The notes under the pieces are model-generated. The model made no database searches, was not told the DNA's origin, and saw only the letters and a program-made list of their open reading frames with translations. A stretch of DNA of 39,472 nt, from positions 1 to 39,472 of the forward strand of contig JACQZV010000087.1 in NCBI GenBank assembly GCA_016213695.1, read 5' to 3'. Position numbers and translations under genes: made by a program. How positions within the stretch are numbered: the stretch's first letter is position 1; the number at the start of each line of letters is the position of its first letter. Origin of the DNA: Acidobacteriota bacterium (GTDB lineage Bacteria > Acidobacteriota > Vicinamibacteria > Vicinamibacterales > UBA2999). This document shows, one piece after another, positions 23,820-30,901 of this stretch.

Positions 23820-23910
23820 GGAGAGGTACCGAAGTGGTCGTAACGGGGGCGCCTCGAAAGCGTCTTGTCCCGTAAGGGGCACGTGGGTTCGAATCCCACC
23901 CTCTCCGCCA
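23820..23910 (+). tRNA. tRNA-Ser(CGA)
   Basis: Acceptor GGAGAGG pairs with CCTCTCC (23900-23906). The D stem is CCG/CGG. The anticodon stem is GGCGC/GCGTC around loop CTCGAAA, giving anticodon CGA, which reads UCG. A long variable arm (GTCCC-GTAA-GGGGC) marks class II, and the T arm is GTGGG-TTCGAAT-CCCAC. The discriminator is G and CCA is encoded (23908-23910). Confidence 0.96.
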
Positions 23911-29299: not shown

Positions 29300-29383
29300 G
29301 CGAAGACTCCTGGAGTGAGAAGGAGCGTTATTGTAACAGTCGCATTGACACGCGGCGGCAGCCTGTGAAAGGATCCGGCCATC

Positions 29384-29476
29384 GTGTTCGCGGCCCTGGC
29401 CTGCGCGTGTTGTTGTTGTTGTCCTGGAGCGACAGCTTCCGACGGCCGCGCTGTGTCACCGGTTTCCCGCGATTGA
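29384..29476 (+). CDS. Polycysteine leader peptide (predicted cysteine attenuator)
   Basis: A 30-codon frame, GTG to TGA, encoding MFAALACACCCCCPG followed by 15 ordinary residues. Six Cys codons are clustered at codons 7-13. The last five are all TGT (29408-29422), which is unusual in this GC-rich DNA, where TGC prevails. AAAGGA (29368-29373) is a good ribosome-binding site about 10 bases before the GTG. An in-frame TGA at 29366 rules out a longer protein. It is followed by a strong terminator (29511-29548) and the YeiH transporter gene. Cys-rich leaders that act as cysteine-sensing attenuators are known from mycobacteria. The role here is inferred from architecture alone. It could be a chance trinucleotide repeat, but the arrangement argues against that. 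Confidence 0.7.
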   Translation: MFAALACACCCCCPGATASDGRAVSPVSRD

Positions 29477-29524
29477 CGCGATAAGACAACCAGTTCCAGC
29501 GATATCAGAAGGCCCGGAAGGCTG
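29432..29524 (+). promoter_or_regulatory. Predicted attenuator switch: competing RNA stems
   Basis: Three pairings compete. (1:2) ACAGC 29432-29436 with GCTGT 29450-29454. (2:3) CTTCCG-ac-GGCC 29436-29447 with GGCC-CGGAAG 29511-29520, extendable by CAGC/GCTG (29433-29436 with 29521-29524 region). (3:4) the terminator. A ribosome stalled on the Cys codons (to 29422) would cover about to 29436, block 1:2 and favour the antiterminator 2:3. The 1:2 stem is short, so this is a model. Confidence 0.5.
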
Positions 29525-29548
29525 ACACCTTCCGGGCCTTTTTCTTTT
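29511..29548 (+). terminator. Intrinsic terminator upstream of yeiH
   Basis: GGCCCGGAAGG (29511-29521), loop CTGACA, CCTTCCGGGCC (29528-29538), then TTTTTCTTTT (29539-29548). A perfect 11-bp stem with a T-run. It ends 18 bp before the yeiH ATG, so transcripts from the leader must read through it to express the gene. Confidence 0.93.
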
Positions 29549-29566
29549 GTGGTCTTGGAGCACGCA

Positions 29567-30901
29567 ATGATTGAAACGATTGACTCCGCCGGCGTCGCCA
29601 CGGTGGGCCGCAGTGCGGCCCCGGCCGTGCAGAAGACGGCGCCCGTCGCCCGAATCCATGAGGACTGGCTCGCCGTCATCCTGGGGGCGGTCTCCCTGCT
29701 CGTCGTGGTGGCCGGCTGGGTCCCCGCGCTGCCCGGCCTTCGGTGGGGCGGCGCCGCTCCGCTCGCGGCGCTCTTCCGGGCCGAGGTGGTGGTGCCCTGG
29801 CTTGGCGCCGGGGTCGGCCTGTGGGTGCTGTCGGCGGCGGCACTGGCGCTGCAGCGGGGCGACGTCGGCCGCTTCAGCCGCGGCTTTGCGTTCGTCTTCG
29901 CGCTCGCGTGGCTGTCGCTCGTGCTGGCCGGCCATGCGACGGCGCTCGCGTGGGGCATCGAGTACGTGATCTTCGCGCTCGCGGTCGGGCTGCTGGTCAG
30001 CCACGTCGGCGGCGCCGGGAGCCTCGTTCGCGCGGCCGCGTCCTCCGAGCTCTTCATCAAGACGGGGCTCGTGCTGATGGGCGCGTCGATCCTCTTTGCC
30101 GATGTCGTCCAGGCCGGCGCGCTCGGCATCCTGCAGGCGCTCGGCGTCGTGATTGTCGTCTGGTACGTGTCGTTCTGGCTCGCGTCGCGCTTCCGGGTGG
30201 ACGAGGAGCTGGCGGTCATGCTCTCGACGGCCGTGTCCATCTGCGGCGTGTCGGCGGCGATTGCGGCGTGCGGCGCCATCCAGGGCGATCGCCGCAAGCT
30301 GAGCTATGTCACCTCGCTCGTGCTGATCGTCGCGGTGCCGATGATCATCCTGATGCCGTGGGTCGTCCGGCTCACCGGCATTCCCGACGTCGTCGCCGGC
30401 GCGTGGATGGGCGGCACGCTGGATACGACCGGGTCGGTGACGGCGGCCGGCGCGCTCGTGAGCGACACGGCGATGAAGGTGGGGACGATCGTCAAGTTCT
30501 CGCAGAACGTGCTGATCGGCGTCGCGGCGCTGGTGCTGTCGGCGTGGTGGAGCGTGCGGACGCGCGAGGCCCGGGGCGGCGCCACGGGCGCCCGCGTCAT
30601 CTGGGACCGCTTCCCGAAGTTCGTCCTCGGGTTCGCCGCGGCGTCGCTCGTGTTCTCGTTCCTGCTCACGCCGGAGCTGGTGGCGCGCACGAAGGATGCG
30701 GTCGGGTCGCTGCGCACGATCTGGTTCGCGCTGGCGTTTGTCTCCATCGGCCTCGAAGCGCGCGTCAGCGATCTGCTGACGCTCGACAACGGCCGCCCGC
30801 TCGCCAGCTTCGTGCTGGCCCAGGCGTTCAACGTCGGCTGGACGCTGCTGCTGGCATGGCTGATCTTCGGCGGCCTGTTCTTCGCCGCGCCCGTCCTCTG
30901 A
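29567..30901 (+). CDS. yeiH: YeiH/UPF0324-family putative sulfate transporter
   Basis: A 444-residue inner-membrane protein with about ten or more hydrophobic helices after a ~30-residue hydrophilic N-terminus. STAVSICGVSAAIAACGAI and AGAWMGGTLDTTGSVTAAGALV are the conserved motifs of the 'conserved hypothetical 698' (YeiH) family, usually labelled putative sulfate exporter; transport has hardly been tested. The ATG at 29567 has GGAG six bases upstream. An in-frame GTG at 29549 overlaps the terminator T-run and is unlikely. It sits alone behind the polycysteine leader and terminator. Those suggest expression rises when Cys-tRNA is short, which fits import or sulfur scavenging better than sulfate export. 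Confidence 0.88.
   Translation: MIETIDSAGVATVGRSAAPAVQKTAPVARIHEDWLAVILGAVSLLVVVAGWVPALPGLRWGGAAPLAALFRAEVVVPWLGAGVGLWVLSAAALALQRGDVGRFSRGFAFVFALAWLSLVLAGHATALAWGIEYVIFALAVGLLVSHVGGAGSLVRAAASSELFIKTGLVLMGASILFADVVQAGALGILQALGVVIVVWYVSFWLASRFRVDEELAVMLSTAVSICGVSAAIAACGAIQGDRRKLSYVTSLVLIVAVPMIILMPWVVRLTGIPDVVAGAWMGGTLDTTGSVTAAGALVSDTAMKVGTIVKFSQNVLIGVAALVLSAWWSVRTREARGGATGARVIWDRFPKFVLGFAAASLVFSFLLTPELVARTKDAVGSLRTIWFALAFVSIGLEARVSDLLTLDNGRPLASFVLAQAFNVGWTLLLAWLIFGGLFFAAPVL

Follow-up and report, generated by a model that had tools for sequence, protein, structure and literature searches.

What does a short cysteine-rich reading frame followed by a terminator do in front of a yeiH-type gene? 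The question is raised by a locus in the window, by which we mean the whole 39,472-nucleotide stretch of Acidobacteriota DNA that was analysed. On the + strand, a GTG-started frame of 30 codons (29384..29476; MFAALACACCCCCPGATASDGRAVSPVSRD) ends at TGA 29474-29476 and carries six putatively regulatory Cys codons between 29402 and 29422, a TGC at 29402-29404 and five consecutive TGT codons at 29408-29422. Downstream lies an intrinsic terminator (29507..29548, +), whose 5′ arm (region 3, 29511-29521, GGCCCGGAAGG) and 3′ arm (region 4, 29528-29538, CCTTCCGGGCC) form a perfect 11 bp stem, or 15 pairs counting flanking A-U/A-T pairs, ahead of a T-rich tail. The ATG of the yeiH-type gene (29567..30901, +; 444 aa) follows 18 nt after the tail, with GGAG at 29557..29560 (+) as its likely ribosome-binding site by sequence reading. 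An initial annotation had reported the GTG-started frame with its six cysteines, its five consecutive TGT codons and TGA at 29474, and also a perfect 11-bp GC stem with T-run at 29511-29548 and the distance to yeiH; all were found in the sequence as claimed. The predicted fold of 29368-29570 beats 200 of 200 dinucleotide shuffles (z -3.72), and no Rfam 15 family scored above its gathering score at the window leader or at the leaders of 20 loci checked.

The yeiH product passes the PF03601 cut-off of 24.5 bits comfortably (142.8 bits, E 1.5e-41) and scores 56.9 bits against TIGR00698, below the NCBI cut-off of 232.6, which marks it as a divergent member. In Salmonella, sulfite resistance depends on yeiH, which YeiE activates together with sulfite (PMC12880088). 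The gene itself is tied to cysteine supply only through this family link to sulfur oxyanions. One would not first expect a sulfite-resistance-linked transporter to be induced when cysteine runs low, and this counts against reading the leader as a cysteine attenuator.

Conservation was examined in a sample of 149 related genomes, 37 of which encode a YeiH relative with an E value no worse than 1e-20. Leader and terminator were present at 4 of the 30 loci read (two of these 30 had under 60 nt of upstream sequence), namely the window's own and those of the three closest homologues, which are about 74% identical. With GTG translated as M, the three additional leader peptides read MFVHPTCACCCCQGASASAGRAASVSHL (G011), MFVNPTCACCCCHGAKASDGRAVSPGSSR (G026) and MSAVVTCACCCRGAQVSMGRAVSAPASF (G016); among the loci read, more distant YeiH homologues lack the leader. 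The search for Cys-run frames with terminators upstream of yeiH homologues, as proposed in the initial annotation, was thus positive in three related genomes, and on this recurrence we rejected a chance origin of the leader. We also rejected the leader as a general feature of YeiH genes: among the best 80 of 200 named relatives, three carry it (another three had under 50 nt upstream), and these are the same sequences as G026, G011 and G016. A fifth YeiH leader was found in another family of the order (G503), before a much less similar YeiH.

The leader extends well beyond yeiH. A covariance model built from the four yeiH leaders (R1) was run on 396 genomes of the phylum and gave some match at E 1 or better in 102, many of them weak or terminator-only. 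At its 21 strongest other places, on 20 stretches, a Cys-codon frame occupies the expected position in 20; the remaining place (L184) has no Cys frame and was excluded from the collection described below. Within the order that we take to be the group carrying the family, Vicinamibacterales, 162 genomes were searched with a wider model built on 24 leaders (R2): 139 of them match at E 0.01, and at E 1e-7 the number falls to 98. Among 30 genomes of other phyla, 16 matched at E 0.01, the best (4.9e-6) covering model positions 95-154, which is the terminator only, and none reached E 1e-7; E 0.01 is therefore too lax and 1e-7 a fair line. At 1e-5, matches occurred in 43 of the 396 genomes of the phylum sample, 31 in the order, 3 in the class outside the order and 9 outside the class; among the last, G278 shows a leader with four Cys ahead of a frame that looks CysH-like by eye, and G215 has no polycysteine leader. 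In all, 104 leaders were collected from 77 genomes, comprising 102 R2 matches with E <=6.2e-11 and two from the R1 search (G349 and G210), a set that contains near-duplicates (G037 twice; G129/G148/G510). The window's genome has two standout places, the window leader (E 4.3e-25) and C20:32976-33118 (E 5.3e-20), and eight additional matches at E 5e-4 or worse.

The covariance models hold no information on frames or genes. In each of the 104 leaders, every frame was tested for a start codon no more than 25 codons upstream of the TGY run together with a stop before the terminator; the Cys frame passed in 103, the Leu frame in 36 and the Val/Ala frame in 10. Runs in the 103 leaders comprise two (11 leaders), three (43), four (27), five (18) or six (4) Cys codons. 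Loss of the run with the terminator kept, which the initial annotation had named as evidence against its reading, was seen at one of the 104 strong matches, L288, which reads MSFTTCRRCACSCTRT and is still Cys-rich, with four cysteines. Among 20 weaker matches, 14 have two or more adjacent Cys codons and six have no run. TGT accounts for 288 of 373 run codons, as against 50 of the 327 Cys codons in the genes behind (TGC 277/327); our guesses are that this preference reflects G-U pairing in the first hairpin of the leader or slow decoding.

The genes behind the leaders point to sulfur metabolism. When the first gene that could be recognised behind each leader was classed by its similarity to Pfam-checked representatives, it was a siroheme synthase at 30 of the 104 leaders, TauE/SafE at 17, CysD at 15, CysH at 12, TlpA-like at 10, a RimK-like ATP-grasp protein at 7, YeiH at 5, CysK at 2, and SUMT and an ABC binding protein at 1 each, with 4 left without a class and with the class weak or differing between two assignments at L298 and L293. 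Siroheme synthase, SUMT, CysD, CysH, CysK, TauE or YeiH genes thus follow 82 of the 104, and cysS was assigned behind none. An independent count of Pfam domains in 101 proteins gives a similar picture (PAPS_reduct 30, NAD_binding_7 26, TauE 13, TP_methylase 13, PF03601 5). The second leader of the window's genome precedes overlapping frames of the precorrin-2 dehydrogenase type (siroheme synthase), C-methyltransferase (SUMT) and sulfite/nitrite reductase families. A search of the same genome with PF01507 (CysD/CysH) gave no match in its 90.6%-complete assembly, and CysD/CysH are missing either from the assembly or from the organism. Because leaders precede so many other sulfur genes, a yeiH-only system was rejected: the initial description of an attenuator before a YeiH gene is thereby amended, the leader being one member of a multi-gene family and not special to yeiH. 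If cysteine shortage turns on YeiH along with siroheme/sulfite reductase, CysD and CysH, its role here may be to supply sulfur or to remove sulfite arising from assimilation.

Several individual loci deserve mention. Behind one polycysteine leader (L269 574-2172, G011:C27), TauE and a CysD-like PAPS_reduct domain are fused in one 533-codon frame; behind another (L297, G026:C91) they are two frames. This arrangement hints that TauE may work together with sulfate activation. At L186 (G005:C1:46019-46412), two divergent polycysteine leaders stand back to back, before CysD and before TauE. The RimK-like ATP-grasp protein behind the leaders of L175, L176, L235, L244, L248, L249 and L283 is a candidate thiol or Cys-ligating enzyme. 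The leaders of L303 and L337 stand before frames judged peroxiredoxin-like by eye, and in G077 a SAM riboswitch (L178 5504-5640) is found ~3.3 kb past a polycysteine leader. The window also has a tRNA gene at 23820-23907 (Rfam match, 52.3 bits).

The promoter geometry of the family bears on how the frame is entered. After three of the 104 leaders were excluded for having no ATG/GTG start, L288 among them, TTGAC was found within 70 nt upstream of the start candidates in 86 of 101. An in-frame ATG/GTG falls 37-40 nt after the first base of TTGAC in 64 of 101, whereas the other two frames score 1 and 2; of the 64 in-frame starts, 6 have a Shine-Dalgarno-like core ahead of them. Other leaders have an xAxAAT box at an offset of 24-29 from TTGAC. 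In the window, a putative -35 box, TTGACA (29345..29350, +), with the geometry common to other leaders, lies 39 nt before the leader start codon, and the corresponding offset is occupied by a -10-like hexamer, AAGGAT (29369..29374, +), which matches TATAAT at 3 of 6 positions; a generic promoter scan of the window returned no site at the leader, where the -10 is this weak. The initial annotation had also pointed to AAAGGA as a ribosome-binding site. Its letters are present at 29368-29373, overlapping the hexamer, and that reading is doubtful; by family promoter geometry they fall in, and more likely belong to, the -10 region. A sigma-70 transcript would begin 0-4 nt before the start codon, which gives the leaders a leaderless appearance, and the window leader, with a predicted transcript start at about 29381-29382 (+), is probably read from the 5′ end of its RNA.

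Between the Cys codons and the terminator lies a strand with two possible partners. The initial annotation had observed that the terminator 5′ arm is complementary to leader bases 29436-29447; the complementarity is real and extends back to 29433. In the predicted fold of the window without a ribosome, region 1 on the Cys-codon side (29403..29423, +) holds 29431-29451 through helices 29403-29407/29447-29451, 29409-29415/29440-29446 and 29418-29423/29431-29436, hiding region 2, the antiterminator strand (29433..29447, +; CAGCUUCCGACGGCC). This 1:2 helix is partly conserved among the four yeiH leaders. When the Cys codons are masked by a ribosome footprint, a check suggested with the original description, 29433-29447 leaves region 1 and pairs with 29511-29524; a ribosome placed at the stop codon leaves the first hairpin intact. 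The predicted probability that the terminator arm pairs with the window leader is 0.08 free, 0.69 stalled and 0.03 with the ribosome at the stop, the mask sizes here and below being our choice. In the other three yeiH leaders it shows little or no rise on stalling (0.62 to 0.84, 0.84 to 0.84 and 0.83 to 0.84). Over 102 leaders, which omit L288 (no run) and L277 (no unbroken stem) from the 104 in both folding and swap tests, the mean is 0.50 free, 0.76 stalled, 0.43 at the stop and 0.61 in a shuffled-middle control; on stalling it climbs by more than 0.05 in 62 leaders, falls in 2 and shifts by less than 0.05 in 38.

Swap tests gave the same picture of a matched arm and leader. Terminator arms bind their own leaders at a mean of -17.1 kcal/mol and swapped leaders at -15.6 (n=102), with z -8.1 overall and z -5.3 for swaps within gene class, and 0 of 5000 swaps reached the real value in each, kinship being incompletely corrected. 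Region 1 likewise fits its own region 2 better than swapped ones (-24.4 against -20.6; z -12.4, within class z -8.9), again with incomplete correction for kinship. The classes used for within-class swaps came from an earlier best-ORF assignment that includes shadow frames at L256, L265, L272 and L182. The best arm-pairing site starts 9-17 nt past the Cys run in 74 of 102 leaders, within a free stretch of median 87 nt. When the whole terminator was included in the masked window fold, it was still the best structure, so the switch must depend on the order in which the strands are synthesised. A ribosome at the stop codon has already passed region 2, and the 'off' state therefore relies on the 1:2 hairpin.

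The observation is real and larger than first noted, and the window element is very probably a ribosome-mediated transcription attenuator, responding to charged tRNA-Cys and belonging to a family that stands before sulfur-assimilation genes in this order. The computations show the frame, its conservation, its association with these genes and the complementarity of arm and leader. The core of the initial proposal, that a Cys-codon leader with a terminator makes a cysteine-responsive attenuator, draws computational support from Cys-frame conservation, the sulfur genes downstream and the leader-arm fit, from which we infer regulation by cysteine. The model supposes a leaderless start, ribosome stalling, cysteine as the signal and a direction of control as follows. 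The transcript would start a few bases before the GTG, and a ribosome would read the leader frame from the RNA 5′ end. When cysteine is plentiful, it would pass the Cys codons, and region 1 would fold onto region 2 (29433-29447); with region 2 occupied, the terminator (29511-29538) would form and transcription would end before yeiH. When cysteine is short, the ribosome would stall on the Cys codons and cover region 1, and the freed region 2 could pair with the emerging terminator 5′ arm, allowing the polymerase to continue into yeiH.

Could the peptide rather than its decoding be the sensor? A Cys-rich nascent chain that binds metal or is oxidised might stall the ribosome, making metal or redox stress the signal, and C-x-C patterns (CAC, CMC) and G/A-S residues past the run recur in many leaders; TlpA-like and peroxiredoxin-like genes (the latter by eye at L303) are among the targets. 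We consider this quite unlikely: run length (2-6) and surroundings vary widely, the conserved residues past the run fall where the RNA of region 2 pairs, and most targets are cysteine-supply genes. Slightly less probable again is translation attenuation, with the leader governing access to the yeiH start and the hairpin incidental. Leaderless polycysteine frames of M. smegmatis do act on downstream translation (PMC9031893, PMC13236596), but here the GGAG and ATG of yeiH lie outside the hairpin, and a T-tailed GC hairpin was found by model in 103 of 103 run-bearing leaders (with a simple unbroken stem in 102), its arm fitting region 2.

That the hairpin is a constitutive terminator of an unrelated short transcript, encoding cysteines by chance and regulating nothing, draws on the fact that regulation is itself deduced from sequence and folding tests; conservation of frame, position, complementarity and gene class makes it highly improbable. 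The chance that the TGT run is read in another frame, as a leucine- or valine-codon leader, is close to negligible. TTG (Leu) runs do occur in frame +2, where a 39-aa frame from 29365 reads LRVLLLLSWS, but the targets are sulfur genes and the start-and-stop test (Cys 103, Leu 36, Val/Ala 10 of 104) led us to reject this reading.

Attenuation by charged tRNA-Cys has familiar relatives. In the classic trp and his leader attenuators, a run of regulatory codons is combined with alternative 1:2, 2:3 and 3:4 pairings; the present leaders share both features and differ by a probable leaderless start, by cysteine and by their occurrence in Acidobacteria. Cys-run leaders are likewise already known. Actinobacterial cys leaders were described in comparative work with Cys runs and no terminators (PMC1262725), and the mycobacterial leaderless polycysteine frames act by translation (PMC9031893, PMC13236596, PMC9094748). 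The mycobacterial short ORFs reported by Canestrari et al. (2020), as described in PMC9031893 and PMC13236596, are alike in their adjacent Cys codons, apparently leaderless start, position before sulfur/cysteine genes and proposed signal of cysteine availability. They differ in acting by translation attenuation, where the present leaders have an intrinsic terminator with a fitting antiterminator strand, lie in another phylum and have YeiH, TauE and siroheme genes as targets. The uORFC-8-2 motif is a predicted ribosome-mediated attenuator of the terminator type before cysS in Rhodobacterales; its first stem holds tandem Cys codons, and it has an intrinsic terminator (PMC8632094). It is set apart by cysS as sole target, by usually two Cys codons at positions 14-15 and by an AUG start (PMC8632094). 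The Salmonella YeiE-YeiH system regulates the same gene family, there through a sulfite-binding LysR regulator (PMC12880088) and here through an RNA leader. A literature search for such leaders and attenuators, with most subscription journals outside its coverage, returned no title on cysteine attenuators in Acidobacteria. What appears to be new is the occurrence in Acidobacteria of terminator-type polycysteine leaders with an unusually wide target set. They would bring together leaderless polycysteine frames and attenuation by an intrinsic terminator, each so far described separately.

A bolder proposal, to which we give somewhat less than an even chance, is that a whole order of Acidobacteria runs sulfur assimilation through many separate leaderless polycysteine attenuators, each gene cluster having its own, rather than through a master sulfur regulator, and that the 'exporters' YeiH and TauE belong to its cysteine-starvation regulon. 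If this is true, YeiH and TauE would help to acquire sulfur or to deal with the sulfite that assimilation produces. A role in trans is also conceivable for the short terminated RNAs and their Cys-rich peptides. The leaders predict, from sequence alone, the sulfur regulon of a poorly studied and abundant bacterial group, and they give the poorly understood YeiH a testable link to cysteine supply.
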